Of a DNA stretch of 33,708 bases, positions 7,768 through 31,635 are shown piece after piece (the stretch's first letter is position 1; each line of letters begins with the position of its first letter). The stretch is from Bacteroidetes bacterium GWF2_49_14 (lineage in GTDB: Bacteria; Bacteroidota; Bacteroidia; Bacteroidales; UBA12481), in contig MEOR01000038.1 in assembly GCA_001769295.1 (NCBI GenBank), forward strand, positions 3,048 to 36,755, given 5' to 3'. Under the pieces are notes generated by a model. It saw only the letters and a program-made list of their open reading frames with translations, was not told the DNA's origin and made no database searches. The translations under genes were made by a program, and so were the position numbers.

Positions 7768-7802
7768 AGTTACCAGTTACCGGTTACCGGTTACCAGTTA
7801 GG
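7768..7802. repeat. Heptamer tandem tract RGTTACC, 5 units
   Basis: AGTTACC AGTTACC GGTTACC GGTTACC AGTTAGG, starting 4 nt upstream of the glnN ATG. Confidence 0.85.
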
Positions 7803-8032: not shown

Positions 8033-8067
8033 CCTCCGTCATCGGTCGTCGGTCATCGGTCATCGGT
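8033..8067. repeat. Heptamer tandem tract CATCGGT (sense ACCGATG), 5 units
   Basis: CCTCCGT CATCGGT CGTCGGT CATCGGT CATCGGT, directly abutting the stop codon (8068-8070) of the M20 peptidase. Confidence 0.85.
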
Positions 8068-9429
8068 CTACTCCGTATAGTAATGGTAAAATCTCGTTAT
8101 CGTCTCAATCCCTTTGTAAAGATTCCACAGGGGGAAGTTCTCGTTGGGCGAATGGATGGCGTCGGATTCGAGCCCGAAGCCCATCAGGATTGATTTGACA
8201 CCCAGCACATTCTCGAAGGTGGAGATAATCGGAATACTACCTCCACTCCGGAATGGAACCGGACGCTTGCCGAAGGTTTCCGCATAGGCTTTCTCCGCGG
8301 CCTTGTATGCCGGCATGGTTATCGGTGAAACATAGGCTGCTCCGCCATGGAGGTTTTCTACCTTTACCTTTACCTGCGGTGGTGCTATGGATTCGAAGTA
8401 TTCCTGGATCAATCGGGCAATTTTATGATGGTCCTGATGCGGCACAATCCGTGAACTGATCTTTGCAAAAGCCTTTGAAGGCAGCACGGTTTTGGTTCCC
8501 TCTCCGGTGTAGCCGCCCCAGATCCCACAGACTTCGAAAGTTGGCCGGATGCCGGTACGCTCGGTTACGCGGTAGCCCTTCTCACCCCAGACTTCATCGA
8601 CACCCACCGCAGCCCTGTATTTCTCTTCATTAAAAGGGGCCTGTGAGAGCAGTGCGCGTTCCTCATCGGTGGCCTCCAGTACGTCATCATAAAAACCCGG
8701 AATGGTGATCCGGTTGTTTTCGTCGTGAACGGTGGCAAGCATTTTCGACAGGATAACGATCGGGTTGGCAACGGCGCCTCCAAACAAGCCTGAATGCAGG
8801 TCCTTATCGGGACCGGTCACCTCGATTTGCAGGTAGGTGAGCCCGCGGAGTCCGGTGGTTATTGAGGGGGTATCCTGTCCGATCATGGAGGTATCGGAGA
8901 CGAGAATAATATCGGATTTCAGCATTTCCTTATGCTCCTCGCAGAATTTACCCAGGTTGGGCGACCCGATCTCCTCTTCTCCCTCGATCATGAACTTGAC
9001 GTTGCATCTGAGCTGCCCGGTTTTAGCCAGATATTCGAAGGCCTTGATATGCATGAACGACTGGCCTTTGTCATCATCCGCGCCGCGGGCGAATATCTTA
9101 TCCTCCCGGATAACCGGATCAAAGGGATCCGACTTCCAGAGGTCGAGCGGATCCACCGGCATCACGTCCATGTGAGCATAAACCATTACGGTAGGCCAAT
9201 CGGGGTTAACCATCTTTTGGGCATAGATGACCGGATTCCCTTCGGTTTCATAAATTTCCGCCGAATCCACACCGGCCTGCAGGAGCAATTTTTTCAGACT
9301 GGCTGCCGCCCGGTACATATCGGGCTTATGGGAAGCGATGGAACTGATCGAAGGAATTCGTATCAGACCGAAGAGCTCTTCGAGAAACCGCTCCTTATGC
9401 TGATCGATGTATTCGTTAATTGTTATCAT
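8068..9429 (-). CDS. M20 family dipeptidase/metallopeptidase
   Basis: 453 aa; VMVYAHMDVMPVDPLDLWKSDPFDP, FARGADDDKGQ, MIEGEEEIGSPNL, FRSGGSIPIISTFENVLG. Confidence 0.92.
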   Translation of the reverse strand: MITINEYIDQHKERFLEELFGLIRIPSISSIASHKPDMYRAAASLKKLLLQAGVDSAEIYETEGNPVIYAQKMVNPDWPTVMVYAHMDVMPVDPLDLWKSDPFDPVIREDKIFARGADDDKGQSFMHIKAFEYLAKTGQLRCNVKFMIEGEEEIGSPNLGKFCEEHKEMLKSDIILVSDTSMIGQDTPSITTGLRGLTYLQIEVTGPDKDLHSGLFGGAVANPIVILSKMLATVHDENNRITIPGFYDDVLEATDEERALLSQAPFNEEKYRAAVGVDEVWGEKGYRVTERTGIRPTFEVCGIWGGYTGEGTKTVLPSKAFAKISSRIVPHQDHHKIARLIQEYFESIAPPQVKVKVENLHGGAAYVSPITMPAYKAAEKAYAETFGKRPVPFRSGGSIPIISTFENVLGVKSILMGFGLESDAIHSPNENFPLWNLYKGIETITRFYHYYTE

Positions 9430-12665: not shown

Positions 12666-12698
12666 CCTCAATCGTCACATCATCACATCATCACATCA
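12666..12698 (-). repeat. Octamer tract GATGTGAT, about 4 units, overlapping the stop codon of the 12696..13385 gene
   Basis: Sense strand: T[GATGTGAT][GATGTGAT][GATGTGAC][GATTGAGG]; the TGA stop is the first T plus GA of unit 1. Confidence 0.85.
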
Positions 12699-13385
12699 TT
12701 TGAGTTTCTGCCGTATCCCCAGCCTCACAAACTCATTCTCATACAGCTGTTTATCATAAAAAAACCGTTCCTTGAACTTATCGTACCATTCCTGTGCTTC
12801 CGGGATTCGGTTAAGCTGCACCAGGAGGTAAATAATATTAAAATAGGCCAGTCCGTATTCGAAATAGAGGTCCGCCTCTGCCATCTCCTTGAACGCCAGG
12901 AGGGCTCCCTCGCGATCGCCCTTTGCAAAGGACTGGAATCCCCTGGAGACCATTTTGTTAAGTGGTGGATCCAGAATGATTCCCTGGAGGTAAAACTCAC
13001 GCTTCGGGAGATCTTCCAAAAGATCGAAATACTTGGTGTTCTTCGGCAGCGGGCCAAAAACGAGCGTAAACTCAAATATCTCATTCAGGGCAGTAAACGC
13101 ATGCTTTTCCGGCGTAAAGGGCGCCTTGACCGAACGTTTCAGCTTTATCCGGTCAGGATCGCTCACCGGGCGGATAAAAAGGTTTTTCGTCCGCAGGGTA
13201 AACGGAGGCATCTGCTTATCATTGATCATCCTCACCACAATAGTGGTGGTAGTGTCCGTCATCTCCACCTTAAAGATCGACATAGACGGGATCGGTTTGA
13301 TCGCGATATTCGGATTATACACAATCTGGCCTTGCAAACTCCAAATCCCAAAAAACAAAACCAAAAAAACAACTAGCTTCTTCAT
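12696..13385 (-). CDS. Hypothetical secreted protein
   Basis: 229 aa; signal peptide MKKLVVFLVLFFGIWSLQGQ; possible TPR-like C-terminal half (inference). Confidence 0.65.
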   Translation of the reverse strand: MKKLVVFLVLFFGIWSLQGQIVYNPNIAIKPIPSMSIFKVEMTDTTTTIVVRMINDKQMPPFTLRTKNLFIRPVSDPDRIKLKRSVKAPFTPEKHAFTALNEIFEFTLVFGPLPKNTKYFDLLEDLPKREFYLQGIILDPPLNKMVSRGFQSFAKGDREGALLAFKEMAEADLYFEYGLAYFNIIYLLVQLNRIPEAQEWYDKFKERFFYDKQLYENEFVRLGIRQKLK

Positions 13386-13404
13386 CTTAAATCACATTAT
13401 CTCA

Positions 13405-13456
13405 ATCATCAAATCATCGAATCAACAAATCAACACATCATCACATCATCAAATCA
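13405..13456 (-). repeat. Octamer tract GATKTGAT, 6.5 units, overlapping the stop codon of the M28 peptidase
   Basis: Plus strand ATCATCAA ATCATCGA ATCAACAA ATCAACAC ATCATCAC ATCATCAA ATCA, exact period 8. Confidence 0.9.
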
Positions 13457-14836
13457 CAGCCCATATTTATCCACGAGATAAACAAGGCACGCAATCCCCG
13501 CCGCTCCCATCTGCATCTCCCTCCGGTCAACCATTTCAAAGGTGTCGGAGGCCGCGTGGTGATATCTGAAATAACGGCTGTCGTCCGGAATTATTCCCAT
13601 AAAGAGAATATCGGGGTAAAAGGTTTTGAGCGGACCGATATCGGCACCACCACCGCCACGGTTGAGGCGGATTCTGTAAGGATCGAAGAGCGGCTGCCAT
13701 TCGGCGGCTCTCTCCATCTGGGCTTCATTGCCGATGATCCCTAAAAACTGTGGGAAAAATACGCCCCGGTCAGATTCCAGGGCGGCAATATGCTTTTCAC
13801 CTTTTTCCGAGGCTTCCCGGGCATAAGCCAGTCCGCCCCGCTGGGCTACCTCCTCATCCATAAACATCACGGCCCTTATCGAGTGGCGCGGCCTGATACC
13901 GCAGGTCCTGAACAGGCGAAGCATCTCAATGGACTGAATGCAGCCGCCACCGTCATCGTGGGCGCCTTCGGCAATATCCCATGCATCGAGGTGGCCACCA
14001 ACGGTAATATATTCATTCGGATATTCGGATCCCCGAATCTCGCCGATCACGTTAAAGGAAGGCACTTCCGGTCCCTCTTCGCAGGTGGTCCGGAAATAGA
14101 AATTGAGTGATGGGTCACCCTTCAGCCATTGGCTAAGTGTTTCCGCTGCCCGCGTGGAGATGGCTATCGCCGGCACCGACCTGACACCCTCCGCAGCCCG
14201 GGTTACTCCGGTATGCGGAAAATCATCAATCTCGATAGTCATCGAGCGGACTACTACCGCAGCGGCACCCAGGCGGGCAGCCTCAGCGGGCCCGTTGGTG
14301 CGCTGCCATACGGCCTCCCCGTAAGCGGAGAAAGTTCCCAGGTGTGTAGCGTTCATTGGCTGATTGAAGAACACAATCCTGCCTTGCACCTCCGGGCGGG
14401 TTATATTCTTCCAGTCCGCAGCGGATTTTACCTCCACCACGCTCCCGGACAATCCGTCAGGCCCGGTGCCGACCGACCAGCCCAGTGCACACGAGGGAAC
14501 TTCCATTGTGCCAAATCTTGATGAAATGATCCGTGCCTTTTCCGGCTCGCCACGATCCCAGCTTTTTACCATCACCGACTGGAGCCAGACCGAGTCGAGC
14601 CCTATCTTTTCCATCACCTGGCGGGTGAATTCAACCGCTGCAGCAGCCTGGGGCCTGCCACCAATGCGCCCTTTGGTGTTTTTGCACAGCCATTCAAGAT
14701 TATGATACGCCTCATAGCTGGTAAGGGCTTCATTAAACACCGAACGAAATACATCGGGGTCCTTCGCTTCCTGGGCCGGGAGCATGAACAGGCTGCCCGA
14801 GAGCAGGATTATAGTTCCGAATAGTTTGATCTGCAT
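13454..14836 (-). CDS. M28 family metallopeptidase, secreted
   Basis: 460 aa; signal peptide MQIKLFGTIILLSGSLFMLPAQ; GGHLDAWDIAEGAHDDGGGCIQSIEMLRLF, MFMDEEVAQRGG. Confidence 0.9.
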   Translation of the reverse strand: MQIKLFGTIILLSGSLFMLPAQEAKDPDVFRSVFNEALTSYEAYHNLEWLCKNTKGRIGGRPQAAAAVEFTRQVMEKIGLDSVWLQSVMVKSWDRGEPEKARIISSRFGTMEVPSCALGWSVGTGPDGLSGSVVEVKSAADWKNITRPEVQGRIVFFNQPMNATHLGTFSAYGEAVWQRTNGPAEAARLGAAAVVVRSMTIEIDDFPHTGVTRAAEGVRSVPAIAISTRAAETLSQWLKGDPSLNFYFRTTCEEGPEVPSFNVIGEIRGSEYPNEYITVGGHLDAWDIAEGAHDDGGGCIQSIEMLRLFRTCGIRPRHSIRAVMFMDEEVAQRGGLAYAREASEKGEKHIAALESDRGVFFPQFLGIIGNEAQMERAAEWQPLFDPYRIRLNRGGGGADIGPLKTFYPDILFMGIIPDDSRYFRYHHAASDTFEMVDRREMQMGAAGIACLVYLVDKYGL

Positions 14837-14932
14837 CGCTTTTTATTAATTCACAAATGTCTTAATAAAACCCACGCCACGGCCTTTTGGTTCTAAATTT
14901 TTATATTTTCACGTATAAAATCTGATGGTCTT

Positions 14933-16030
14933 ATGGACTCTTACAACGCTTTCCCCGGCAATCTCATTCTCGCAATCCATCCCCGTGTACCCTTCACAAA
15001 CATTGGATTATTTCGAAACCAGCAACTCATTTTCCTAAAGAAAATCATGCATACCGAAGAGGCAAGGAAGCAATCCCCGGATTATGCCGGAGAGTGCGGA
15101 ATGCGGTCAGAACAGATCTATAAGGAGATGGTGGAAAACAACCTTCCGGTTGCCGACATCAAGGTAGTGATCAGCCGCGGAGGGCTGGTCCACCCCGTGC
15201 AAGCCGGCGTTTACAGGGTAAACGAGAAAATGATCGAGGATCTTCGGGCAGGTGTTTCGGGTGAGGATGTGGTTAACCTCGGCGGCCTGGTTGCTGCGGA
15301 ACTTGCTAAAATGATCCGCGGAGCCTCCGCATTTGTGGCTGACCCGGTGGTGGTGGACGAATTCGATGAAATCGCCCGCGTTTCGGGCCATGCCGAATTC
15401 AAACGGAGATCAGTGTTTCACGCACTTGAGCAAAAAGCGGTTGCCAGAAAATATGCAAAGACAGTACAGAAAAAATATGAAGACCTTAACCTGATCGTCG
15501 GACAGATGGGCAATGGAATTACCATAGGCGCCCATCACAGGGGACGGGTGATCGATGCCAATCAGGGTCTCGACGGCGACGGTCCGTTTTCACCCTCCAG
15601 GGCCGGGCAGGTTCCGATCGGTGACCTGATCAACCTCTGCTACAGCGGGAAATACACCCGGGAGGTGCTCTATGACATGATCACGATCCACGGCGGACTC
15701 TATTCCTACCTTGGGGTGCATGACGGATATTCAGCAGAACACATGGCACTGAACGGGGACGAAAAAGCTGTTTTTTACCTGAAAGCGATGGCCTACCAGG
15801 TGGCCAAAACCATTGGGAGCATGTTTACCGTCCTCAGCGGTGATGTCGATGCGATCCTGCTTACTGGCGGACTTGTTCACAGCACCGTTTTCATGGAAGA
15901 ACTTCAGTCGCGCATCCGTCGCATTGCCCCCGTTCACACCTACGCCAGCGAAGACGACGTCGAAACCCTTGCACTCAATGGATATTATATTCTGCAAGGA
16001 GAGATTGCAGTGCAGGAGTACGAAGGGTGA
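14933..16030 (+). CDS. Divergent butyrate kinase/branched-chain fatty-acid kinase homologue with altered catalytic motifs
   Basis: 365 aa; RVNEKMIEDLRAGVSGEDVVNLGGLVAAELAK, DPVVVDEFDEIARVSGHAEFKRRSVFHALEQKAVARKYAK, GDGPFSPSRAGQVPIGDLINLCYSGKYT, AILLTGGL. The canonical NPGSTSTK reads HPRVPFTN. Confidence 0.85.
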   Translation: MDSYNAFPGNLILAIHPRVPFTNIGLFRNQQLIFLKKIMHTEEARKQSPDYAGECGMRSEQIYKEMVENNLPVADIKVVISRGGLVHPVQAGVYRVNEKMIEDLRAGVSGEDVVNLGGLVAAELAKMIRGASAFVADPVVVDEFDEIARVSGHAEFKRRSVFHALEQKAVARKYAKTVQKKYEDLNLIVGQMGNGITIGAHHRGRVIDANQGLDGDGPFSPSRAGQVPIGDLINLCYSGKYTREVLYDMITIHGGLYSYLGVHDGYSAEHMALNGDEKAVFYLKAMAYQVAKTIGSMFTVLSGDVDAILLTGGLVHSTVFMEELQSRIRRIAPVHTYASEDDVETLALNGYYILQGEIAVQEYEG

Positions 16031-16092
16031 TTCGATGATTTGTTGATGTGAAGATGTGATGATTTGTTGATGTGGTGATGTGGTAATGTGGT
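16029..16092 (+). repeat. Octamer tract GATNTGNT, 8 units, overlapping the stop codon of the butyrate kinase homologue
   Basis: T[GATTCGAT][GATTTGTT][GATGTGAA][GATGTGAT][GATTTGTT][GATGTGGT][GATGTGGT][AATGTGGT]; the leading T is base 1 of the TGA stop at 16028-16030. Confidence 0.92.
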
Positions 16093-16110
16093 AAAATGGG
16101 CAGGTGCTCT

Positions 16111-16136
16111 TGTCATCCCCGCGAAAGCGGGGACCG
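16111..16136. repeat. REP-like element tgtcatccccgcgaaagcggggaccg
   Basis: Matches the 40-65 arm over 26 nt; TCCCCGC-gaaa-GCGGGGA hairpin. Confidence 0.9.
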
Positions 16137-16229
16137 GATGATATACTACCATCTTTGGCCCACAATCAACAGGCGGTGACTGCTGCACTGATTCTGCACA
16201 ACGCGACTTTGCCAAACAGCTTTTTGACA

Positions 16230-16257
16230 GGAGATTCCGGCTTCCGCCGGAATGACA
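16230..16257. repeat. REP-like element, variant stem, inverted
   Basis: Plus strand attccggc-ttcc-gccggaat followed by gaca; reverse complement tgtcATTCCGGCggaaGCCGGAAT parallels tgtcATCCCCGCgaaaGCGGGGAc. Confidence 0.85.
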
Positions 16258-16267
16258 GCCTCTCGTC

Positions 16268-16315
16268 ACCACATCACCACATCACCACATCATCACATCG
16301 TCAAATCATCACATC
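16268..16315 (-). repeat. Octamer tract GATGTGRT, 6 units, 3 nt beyond the icmF stop codon
   Basis: Minus strand TAGGTT[GATGTGAT][GATTTGAC][GATGTGAT][GATGTGGT][GATGTGGT][GATGTGGT]. Confidence 0.9.
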
Positions 16316-16318
16316 AAC

Positions 16319-19300
16319 CTACAAGTTCCTTCGATACTGCCCCCCCACCTCAAACAGCGCCTGTGTGATCTGCCCGAGAGAGCAGTATTTGCAGGCTTCC
16401 ATGAGGACTTCAAAAACATTGGTCTGATGAATCGCAGCCTGCCGCACGCGCCGCAGCCATTCCTCTGATTTCTCCCCATTGACAGCCTTATAGCCGACCA
16501 GGGATTCCAACTGCTTTCTTTTTTCATCCTCCGTGGCACGGATCACTTCACCCGGCCTAACAATCGGCGAACCCTTGCTCGAAAGAAAGGTATTGACACC
16601 CATGATCGGGAGCTCGCCTGAATTTTTCATTTTCTCGTAATAGAGGGACTCCTCCTGTATCTGGTTCCGCTGATAATTCCGCTCCATGGCTCCCAGCACC
16701 CCGCCCCGTTCCGAGATCCGGTCAAATTCCGTCATCACAGCCTCCTCAACCAGCTGGGTCAGCTCCTCGATGATAAAGGAACCCTGCAGCGGATTCTGGT
16801 TTCGGGCCAGTCCCAGTTCATGGTTGATGATCAGCTGAATGGCAATGGCCCTGCGCACGGATTCTTCGGTAGGAGTGGTTATCGCTTCGTCATAAGCATT
16901 GGTATGCAGCGAGTTGCAATTGTCGTAAATCGCATACAGGGCCTGCAATGTAGTCCGGATATCGTTAAAATCAATCTCCTGGGCATGTAGCGAACGGCCG
17001 GAAGTTTGAATGTGATACTTCAGCATCTGCGAGCGCTCGTTGCCTCCATACCGATACCGTATGGTCTTGGCCCAGATGATCCGGGCCACACGCCCGATCA
17101 CCGAAAACTCAGGATCGAGGCCGTTCGAGAAGAAGAAGGATAGGTTCGGGGCAAATTCATCGATCTTCATTCCCCTCGCCAGATAATATTCAACGTAGGT
17201 AAAGCCATTGGAAAGGGTCAGCGCCAGCTGCGTTACCGGGTTGGCCCCGGCCTCCGCGATATGATATCCGGAGATGGAAACCGAATAGAAATTCCGCACC
17301 TTTTCCCGTATAAAGAACTCCTGCACGTCACCCATCAGCTTAAGGGAAAAATCGGTTGAAAAAAGACAGGTATTCTGCGCCTGGTCCTCTTTCAGGATGT
17401 CGGCCTGCAGCGTCCCCCGAAGGGTGCACAGGGTCTCCTTCCGGATCCGCTGGTAAACACCGGGAGGCAGCACCTCGTCGCCGGTTATTCCGAGTAATAA
17501 CAATCCCGAACCGTCGTGTCCGTCGGGAAGCTCTCCGCGATAGGACGGCACCTCCACTCCTGACTTCTTATATTTACTCCTGACCTTTTTCTTAACTTCC
17601 TCAGCGATCCCCAGTCTGATAATCTCCTTCTCGCACGCCTGGTCGATCGCCGTGTTGACAAAAAAGGCGGCCAGGATCGGAGCCGGTCCGTTGATGGTCA
17701 TAGATACCGATGTACGCGGATCAAGCAGGTCGAATCCGGAATAGAGACGTTTGGAATCATCCAGGGTACAGACGGACACCCCGCTGTTGCCCACCTTACC
17801 GTATATATCTTTTCTGGTTTCCGGATCTTGTCCGTACAGAGTAACTGAATCATAGGCAGTTGACAGTCTTTTACCCTTCTGCCCGGCCGACAGGTAATGA
17901 AATCTCCGGTTCGTCCGTTCCGGTCCGCCCTCCCCGGCAAACATGCGGGTAGGATCCTCCATCTCCCGTTTGAAAGGATAAACACCCGCTGCATAGGGAA
18001 ACTCCCCAGGCACATTCTCGAGCAACGCCCAGCGAACCAGGTCGCCCCAGTCATGTGTTTTGGGCAGGCTCACCTTGGGTATCCTGATGTGTGACAGGGA
18101 CTCGGTATGTGTTGATATCTGAACATCGGAACCCCGCACGGTAAAGGTGTAAACCGGCCCTTCCAGGGCCTTCTTTTTATCTTCCCAATGCTCCAGCCAG
18201 CTTTGCACATCTCCGTCCACCAGCTTCCGTGCCGTTTCGCACTGCTTATTCAATCCGGCCAGTTCGGCTGAATCCGGATGTTCTTCCGCAACAATGCGGG
18301 CCGATTCATTCAGCACATACCAGCGCCGTGCTTTCTCAGCCTGTGACTCCGCACGCCTGTTGTAATTTCGGATGGTTTCGGCGATTTCCGACAGGTATCG
18401 AACCCTTTTCCCCGGGATTATCTCCATTTTTGAATCTGATGCAGGGAGCGGCGATCCGGCCGAGAAATCCTTTGAAGTCTTTACAAGTAACTGGTTAACA
18501 ACTGCTTCGAACAATGAATTAACTCCGGGGTCGTTGAATTGCGAGGCAATGGTTCCATAAACCGGCATGGCCGACGGGTCCACATCGAATTGCCCGCGGT
18601 TGCGCTGGAACTGTTTCTTAACATCACGCAGGGCATCGAGGGCTCCCGGTTTATCGAACTTATTGAGAGCCACCAGGTCGGAGAAATCGAGCATGTCGAT
18701 CTTCTCCAGCTGGGTGGCTGCACCGTACTCAGGCGTCATTACGTAGAGGGAAACGTCGGCATAATCGGTTACTTCGGAGTCCGACTGGCCGATACCGGAT
18801 GTTTCGAGGATAATGAGATCAAAGCCGGCATAACCCGCCACACAGAGCACATCTGAAATATGTGCGGGAAGGGCCAGGTGTGACTGCCGGGTAGCCATGG
18901 ACCGCATAAAGATTCCCGCCTGATGAATGGAGTTCATCCGGATGCGGTCGCCAAGGAGGGCTCCGCCTGTCCGGCGTTTGGTGGGATCCACTGAGAAGAT
19001 TGCGAGTTTCAGCTCAGGCCGGGCCAGCTTGAATCGCCGTACAAGTTCGTCCACCAGGGACGATTTGCCGGCACCGCCTGTCCCGGTCACGCCCAGTATC
19101 GGCGGATGCATGCAATTGTTCTGGTCCCGGATCTGCTGCAGCACCGGCGCGGCCACATCGGAGTGATTCTCGATGGAAGAGATCATGGAAGCGAGGGCGG
19201 TGAAACTGCCTGATTGGATATTTTCAGGGGCTGCGGGACGGTTTCCCAACGGATAATCCGACTGCTTGACCAGTAGGCTGATCATACCCATGAGGCCAAG

Positions 19301-19690
19301 TACACGGCCGTCATCCGGAGAAAATATTTTTGTAATGCCTTTTTTTTCAAGCTGATAGATCTCTTCCGGAAGAATCACCCCTCCCCCGCCTCCGAATATC
19401 CGGATATGCGAGGCCCCGTTCTGGTCGAGCAGTTCGCGCATGTATTCGAAGAACTCCATGTGGCCGCCCTGGTAACTGGTGATGGCGACAGCCTGAACAT
19501 CTTCCTGGATCGCGCTATCCACGATCTCTGCTACCGACCGGTTATGGCCTAGATGAATCACTTCCACCCCGGACTGCTGGATAATCCGTCGCATGATATT
19601 AATGGCGGCATCGTGACCGTCGAACAGCGACGAAGCAGTGATGATCCGCACCGGATTGACCGGCTGGTACAGGGTTCCTTCTTCTTTCAT
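16319..19690 (-). CDS. icmF: Fused isobutyryl-CoA mutase (B12-binding domain + MeaB-like G-protein chaperone + acyl-CoA mutase domain)
   Basis: 1123 aa; [17 protein letters not shown]...[13 protein letters not shown]-loop [17 protein letters not shown], catalytic [12 protein letters not shown] and [25 protein letters not shown]. Confidence 0.95.
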
Positions 19691-28143: not shown

Positions 28144-28260
28144 TCCCCTCTTTCCTCTCTCCTCTTTATTCTTTCTTCTTTAATCTTTCTTCTTTTATCT
28201 TTCTTTCGCCTTTCGCCTTTTCTCTTTCGCCTTTATCTCCCCCCTTTCTCCCCCCTTTTC
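28144..28260 (+). repeat. Polypyrimidine tract with TTTCGCC units (copy 1)
   Basis: About 117 nt almost entirely C/T, including ctttaatctttcttcttttatctttctttcgcctttcgcc. Confidence 0.85.
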
Positions 28261-29992: not shown

Positions 29993-30123
29993 TCTCTCCG
30001 GAAGCCGCCCAGGGGGTGTTCGGGGTAAATCCCCGGCCTGAAGGCCAGGGTTACTGATCTCTCCGAAAGCCACGATGGTACTAGGCCCCCGGCCTGAAGG
30101 CCGGGGTTACTGATCTCTCCGAA
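29990..30123 (+). repeat. Tandem 56-65 bp repeat (2 full copies plus a partial), each full copy with a CCCCGGCCTGAAGGCCGGGG-type hairpin
   Basis: TGATCTCTCCG at 29990, 30055 and 30111; hairpin-containing segments end in GGGTTAC. Confidence 0.9.
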
Positions 30124-30126
30124 CCC

Positions 30127-30190
30127 TATTTCTTCTTTAATCTTTTTTCTTTCTTCTTTCTTTCGCCTTTCGCCTTTCGCCTTATCTTCA
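30127..30190 (+). repeat. Polypyrimidine tract with TTTCGCC units (copy 2)
   Basis: tatttcttctttaatcttttttctttcttctttctttcgcctttcgcctttcgcc. Confidence 0.8.
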
Positions 30191-31576: not shown

Positions 31577-31635
31577 TTAATTTCTTCCCCCTCTTTAATC
31601 TTTCTTTCGCCTTTTATCTTTCTTCTTTTATCTTA
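31577..31635 (+). repeat. Polypyrimidine tract with TTTCGCC units (copy 3)
   Basis: tcttaatttcttccccctctttaatctttctttcgccttttatctttcttcttttatctta. Confidence 0.8.

Follow-up and report, generated by a model that had tools for sequence, protein, structure and literature searches.

Four tracts of an eight-nucleotide direct repeat lie at the 3' ends of genes in a 33,708-nucleotide stretch of Bacteroidetes bacterium GWF2_49_14 (contig MEOR01000038.1, positions 3,048 to 36,755; the whole stretch is called the window here). We read these tracts, with a probability of roughly 0.55, as fast-turnover intergenic arrays of short direct repeats (period 7-8) in the short gaps between genes of a Bacteroidota-like lineage. 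Arrays of this kind occur genome-wide in several unit families, are oriented with respect to gene edges, leave the C-termini of neighbouring genes preserved, carry different units at one and the same junction in related genomes, and pair as inverted copies across some spacers.

Arrays in the window and across the genome

The four tracts share the period-8 consensus GATNTGNT. A sequence-only reading of the window had described them as exact; their existence and approximate positions were borne out, Tandem Repeats Finder (TRF) calling 12671-12699, 13404-13456, 16034-16090 and 16266-16316, but unit matches of 79-95% make the repeats imperfect. The relation to stop codons had been read correctly. 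In three tracts the stop codon TGA is a T followed by the GA of the first unit, the coding strand being CTC AAA TGA TGTGATGATG at the 229-aa gene (12698-12696), GGG CTG TGA TTTGATGATG at the M28 peptidase gene (13456-13454) and GAA GGG TGA TTCGATGATT at the kinase gene (16028-16030). Tract 4 begins 3 nt past the TAG of the icmF-like gene (coding strand AAC TTG TAG GTTGATGTGATG, read as TAG-GTT-GATGTGAT), which encodes B12-binding, MeaB-like GTPase and mutase domains.

Tracts 3 and 4 are not independent: both are arms of one 288-bp inverted structure (spacer 16031-16318) with two hairpins within it that resemble repetitive extragenic palindromes (REPs). The spacer folds as a single long hairpin in which the arrays pair with each other (minimum free energy -137.6 kcal/mol, z = -10.8). 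The REP-like palindromes inside spacers are of the TGTCATCCCCGCG / TGTCATTCCGGCG type, and REP heads of the form TGTCAT[CT]CC number 123 in 149 kb of spacers. All four spacers with two GATNTGNT arrays are arranged head-to-head. Bacterial interspersed mosaic elements and REPINs are likewise inverted pairs of short palindromes with heads outward, and the core of a REPIN, two inverted REP palindromes around a short loop, is present in spacer 16031-16318; the likeness concerns this core and not the arrays. A REPIN as usually defined is not known to include arrays of 7-8 nt units at its ends.

The genome-wide census covered about 1.78 Mb, half of a 3.52-Mb draft in 163 contigs whose assembly may break at long arrays; part of the sample was picked for holding hits and the rest regardless of hits. 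Tracts were located by a lag-match finder and genes by a purpose-written hexamer-based caller, whose stops in the window agree with the list of open reading frames (ORFs) and whose starts are less certain. Period-7 tracts were intergenic in 79 cases and coding in 26, period-8 tracts in 48 and 3, which places 127 of these 156 tracts between genes. Period-9 tracts, as expected from coding constraint, were mostly within genes (16 of 27, with 11 intergenic). The first 1.14 Mb held 41 period-8 tracts at the score of the window tracts versus none in order-2 Markov shuffles, and no period-7 tract appeared in the shuffled sequence compared with it either, so that a chance origin of the four window tracts is excluded.

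About ten families of 7- or 8-nt units coexist in this one genome, nearly all of their tracts between genes. The largest are GGTTRCC (38 tracts), GATNTGNT (26), GACSGAY (20), GAGACTNN (15) and AAGGCNC (13), followed by a GGGGCAT type (8), CGTGAYG (5) and others; units were assigned to families after looking, and numbers per family are small. The sample covered about 1,318 gene junctions, and 106 of them have a period-7 or period-8 array.

Orientation and register at gene edges

In the GATNTGNT family the GATGTG strand points away from the closer gene edge, into the gap, by 22:3 (26 tracts, p = 1.6e-4). Near stops, 13 tracts are sense and 1 antisense; near starts, 6 are antisense and 2 sense, which is not significant alone and matches the background skew. 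The claim that the arrays are always sense to their gene is thus true of the window but fails across the genome, where they are mostly antisense at start edges, and "sense to gene" is a sub-case of "from gene edge into gap", start codons included. When every period-7/8 tract whose G and C counts differ is included, the G-rich strand points into the spacer 93:29. Only the stop side of this rule is informative, because the G-strand skew of repeat-free spacers is absent in the 30 nt after stops (192:190) and pronounced in the 30 nt before starts (374:160); the near-start bias is therefore not counted as evidence. The association with stops and the sense orientation there recur across the genome in these counts.

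The shared phase relative to the stop recurs as well. Ten GATNTGNT arrays adjoin a stop directly, and eight of these start right at it, in the T+GA register and with at most 2 matching bases upstream. Under a model in which reading frames merely ran into arrays, most stops would be expected 7-26 nt inside the array, and eight of ten at the edge has a probability of about 1e-7. This model was rejected, the expected overlaps being rare in the genome. Across all families, the last two letters of the stop are in register with the unit in 25 of 39 contiguous arrays, versus 8.6 expected from codon use. Further, TGA is the stop at 11 of 15 array-adjacent stops against a background of 28% (p = 4e-4).

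Orthologous junctions and the origin of the arrays

Comparison with relatives suggests that the ancestral gaps were tiny. In a genome of the same family (G010), 2 nt separate the stops of the kinase and icmF genes, versus 288 nt here, and three gene gaps of 1, 12 and -4 nt in the related genome G004 correspond to array-bearing gaps of 46, 94 and 56 nt. At the tract 1 junction, QKLK-TGA-[array]-ATG here stands against QKLK-TGA-AATG-ATG in G004, with C-terminus and stop shared. The C-terminus of the M28 peptidase, YGL, is common to all congeners (G007 has four extra residues), that of the icmF-like protein differs in one conservative residue (YRRNL-TAG here, YRRNM-TAG in G009), and that of the kinase is slightly different (VQEYEG here, VDDYYPA in G004). 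Because three of the four flanking genes agree with relatives at the C-terminus, the arrays altered non-coding DNA only. The alignment of C-termini with orthologues also speaks against a repeat that supplies its own stops as a general explanation: the orthologues that could be compared already had the C-termini and often the stop.

At the M28 junction the units differ between related genomes. It has GATTTGAT units from the TGA in this genome, TAAAGA and then AAGGCTC from the TAA in G004, AAGGCAC from the TAA in G007, AAGGCAT a few nucleotides past the TAA in G001, and no array in G005 and G006. Across 86 neighbouring gene pairs conserved with G004, an array is present in at least one of the two genomes in seven, and in both genomes in two of the seven.

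These observations fit a simple scheme. Being non-coding DNA, the arrays would grow and spread, probably through replication slippage together with copying between loci, and would halt exactly at the coding boundary because selection removes changes inside genes. They would abut stops because no more than a few bases lay between the genes in the ancestor and because the last letters of the stop (GA, AA, AG) equal the first letters of the unit; by seeding or junction microhomology, such a match could fix the phase and, in the sense direction, the orientation. Some spacers may then have turned into inverted ones (array, REP-like hairpins, array), so that the orientation at their far edge would be mirrored. 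What we infer here is that slippage and copying generate the arrays, that stop letters seed them and that no function is under selection. Of the three explanations offered by the sequence-only reading, a mobile or expanding repeat remains the best.

Several points weigh against this scheme. For units that contain a stop, register and orientation are in part a matter of definition wherever the array overlaps the stop, because a sense array that overlaps an ORF ends it and an antisense array is read through. When arrays overlapping the stop were set aside and the others counted by hand, orientation was 15:3 for arrays up to 9 nt from the stop and 17:9 for those up to 15 nt away; we take the bias to be real, though weaker than the raw count. 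The stop-free units AAGGCNC and GGTTRCC are in register 5 times versus 2.3 expected, which is suggestive only. A copying step is needed because unit families span many loci, beyond the reach of local slippage alone, and none was demonstrated. Finally, one array upstream of a start has an identical unit here and in a congener, so that some arrays may be under selection. This array is an antisense GATNTGNT tract directly upstream of the start (contig C145:3907-3948 of this genome, which we call G000; L171 7306-7342), and the gene downstream may encode an arsenite-transporter-type membrane protein.

A possible but doubtful alternative takes the arrays for the outer arms of a composite, REPIN-like mobile element inserting between genes; arrays that lack a REP would be its remnants. 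The build expected of it (array, REP, loop, inverted REP, inverted array) is matched by the stably folding spacer between tracts 3 and 4. Further, in 29 of 39 cases where a spacer has both (13 of 14 for GATNTGNT), the array is found at the head side of the TGTCAT REP and in the same orientation, and the genome has one Y1/TnpA-REP-like transposase gene (L077 4000-4900; G000:C30:49193-49531). However, this gene is flanked by palindromes of another family, GGCCTGAAGGCCGGGGTTACTGAT, which also sets it apart from a REPIN system, and a cognate REP-associated tyrosine transposase flanked by the same REP was not found in an assembly that may lack about 7% of the genome. Many arrays, tracts 1 and 2 among them, lie in spacers that lack a REP, some spacers have one unit family on one side and another on the other, and no target duplication was recognised. 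Rather unlikely, too, is a functional 3'-end element, in which the transcribed array, alone or paired with its inverted partner, would end or protect the mRNA through something that it forms or recruits. It would account for the sense bias after stops here and in other species, for the very stable pairing of tracts 3 and 4 and for the repeated presence of arrays with unrelated units at the M28 junction, and it finds a parallel in the enrichment of transcript ends and starts at published arrays able to form quadruplexes (PMC4692102). Against it, arrays occupy only a small part of the sampled junctions, two relatives do without one at the M28 gene, and arrays also lie upstream of start codons. 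By reading the sequence, no U-run was found after the arrays or REP hairpins at tracts 3 and 4, as an intrinsic terminator would have; the array RNA has no match to an Rfam family, and a known RNA element was rejected on this ground.

The arrays had also been proposed to act as a translational fail-safe, or to bring their own stop, the repeat being kept or spread for the TGA that it places in all three frames within 24 nt. This is true of GATNTGNT in the sense direction, and the excess of TGA at array-adjacent stops agrees with it. Moreover, arrays inside reading frames at other-species loci are antisense in 20 of 20 cases, several of the frames being short and doubtful, but this strand bias is explained by stops alone. 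The proposal does not explain the arrays in general, because AAGGCNC, stop-free in every sense frame, sits on the same side in the same placement; GGTTRCC is also stop-free in sense and similarly placed. C-termini and stops are older than the arrays where testable, and antisense arrays sit before starts. As a general cause the fail-safe is largely refuted, and we regard it as highly improbable. An improbable but more far-reaching option is dedicated repeat addition directed to gene boundaries, outward from the edges, with the G/purine-rich strand leading, primed by stop letters and with units exchanged between species. If true, bacteria would have a counterpart of end-directed (telomere-like) repeat addition here, and not random slippage.

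Other species, published systems and further repeats

A pattern of three GATNTGNT units is present in 24 of 198 genomes of the order, and the matches listed for four units come from scattered species, mainly Bacteroidota. At 80 loci in other species, arrays near stops are sense 16 times and antisense 3 times; tallied by the criterion of Rehm et al. (sense at stops, antisense at starts), the ratios are 22:6 at stops and 16:6 at starts.

Rehm et al. 2015 described GGGNATC and GGGGA(C/T)T heptamer arrays, genome-wide and mostly intergenic, in Xanthomonas and Nostoc (PMC4692102). These lie within 50 bp of a stop on the coding strand, overlap included, or up to 50 bp upstream of a start on the non-coding strand; they include inverted pairs, form G-quadruplexes, prefer four units, and coincide with transcript starts or ends more often than controls when capable of forming quadruplexes, and no role was found by the authors (PMC4692102). 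The present arrays resemble them in their many intergenic places within one genome and in being sense near stops and antisense near starts, the start half alone not being significant here. Unlike those heptamers, GATGTGAT has no GG run and the consensus GATNTGNT no G-tract of three, and quadruplex formation was rejected for units without G-tracts. Further, this one genome has about ten families of 7-8 nt units that are unrelated to one another, and units differ among congeners at one junction. Retention differs as well: 83% of heptamer arrays were kept in place between the genomes designated Xcc and Xac (PMC4692102), against the two of seven array-bearing junctions shared with G004, a more distant pair.

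MacGregor 2015 reported TAACTGA heptamer repeats in Beggiatoaceae, Cyanobacteria and some Bacteroidetes, with placement probably governed by their stop content (PMC4679880). Like the present arrays, these are short intergenic direct repeats with stops in one orientation, some of which overlap the ends of upstream genes. In the main genome of that study, however, they are mostly oriented to a start just downstream, and a single heptamer is involved instead of many families. No TAACTGA family is among the units listed in this genome, and the unit in the window is the octamer GATNTGNT. As summarised in PMC4679880, Mrazek et al. 2007 treated long simple sequence repeats whose units measure 5-11 nt, proposed slippage as their source and, as here, found a heptamer-rich class; that summary describes no stop-anchored layout. 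A literature search for the string GATGTGATGATGTG, which did not extend to subscription literature and preprints, gave no match.

A comparable layout has been on record for other bacteria since 2015, which makes the arrays a striking variant and not a system of a new kind. What is added here is that the rule holds without quadruplex-capable units, for several unrelated units and with unit replacement between congeners. As octamers unable to form quadruplexes and unrelated units follow the strand rule, quadruplex formation is not its general cause. The rule is thus recast as a testable question about the birth of short repeats at gene boundaries, for which the M28 junction, where congeners have unrelated units or none, offers a natural experiment.

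Table 1. Positions of the octamer tracts, their flanking genes and the REP-like palindromes in the window
Feature	Positions	Strand	Remarks
Tract 1, octamer array	12671..12699	-	GATGTGAT x3; direct reading and Tandem Repeats Finder
229-aa gene	12696..13385	-	no Pfam match; upstream of tract 1
Tract 2, octamer array	13404..13456	-	about 6.5 units; heads towards the start of the next gene
M28-family peptidase gene	13454..14836	-	upstream of tract 2
Acetokinase-family (butyrate kinase-like) gene	14933..16030	+	upstream of tract 3
Tract 3, octamer array	16028..16092	+	about 8 units; left arm of composite inverted structure
REP-like palindrome	16111..16134	+	TGTCATCCCCGCGAAAGCGGGGA; in tract 3 - tract 4 spacer
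Second REP-like palindrome	16233..16257	-	GATTCCGGCTTCCGCCGGAATGACA; inverted relative to the first
Tract 4, octamer array	16266..16316	-	about 6 units; right arm of the inverted structure shared with tract 3
icmF-like fused methylmalonyl-CoA-mutase-type gene	16319..19690	-	upstream of tract 4

The window also holds heptamer arrays with the same edge layout as the octamers: GACCGAT from a TAG stop (8038-8068), GGTTGCT just past a TAG stop (135-157) and GGTAACC upstream of a start (7768-7800). Pyrimidine-rich CTTTCGC/CTTTCTT heptamer tracts lie 3' of plus-strand genes (28149-28258, 30129-30183 and 31603-31634), and this family breaks the inward rule, with one tract pointing into the gap and five out of it. 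A large palindromic spacer (2041-2215) is made of GCTAATTGGC / CTCCCTGCGGTC pieces, CTCCCTGCGGTC being present in 26 sampled spacers, and the palindrome found beside the transposase gene recurs at about 30030-30110 of the window.

Elsewhere in the genome, a 9-nt family, GGTTGAA(A/T)T, lies mostly within genes, unlike the 7- and 8-nt families, with arrays of up to 237 nt (among others C108:96206-96442, C3:10550-10673 and C146:9017-9660 of G000). AAGGCNC arrays (contigs C53, C39 and C103 of G000, and loci in G004 and G001) often begin with TAAGGC and end with AAGTAA(G/A), a recurrent terminus that resembles a flanking direct repeat, TAAGG.

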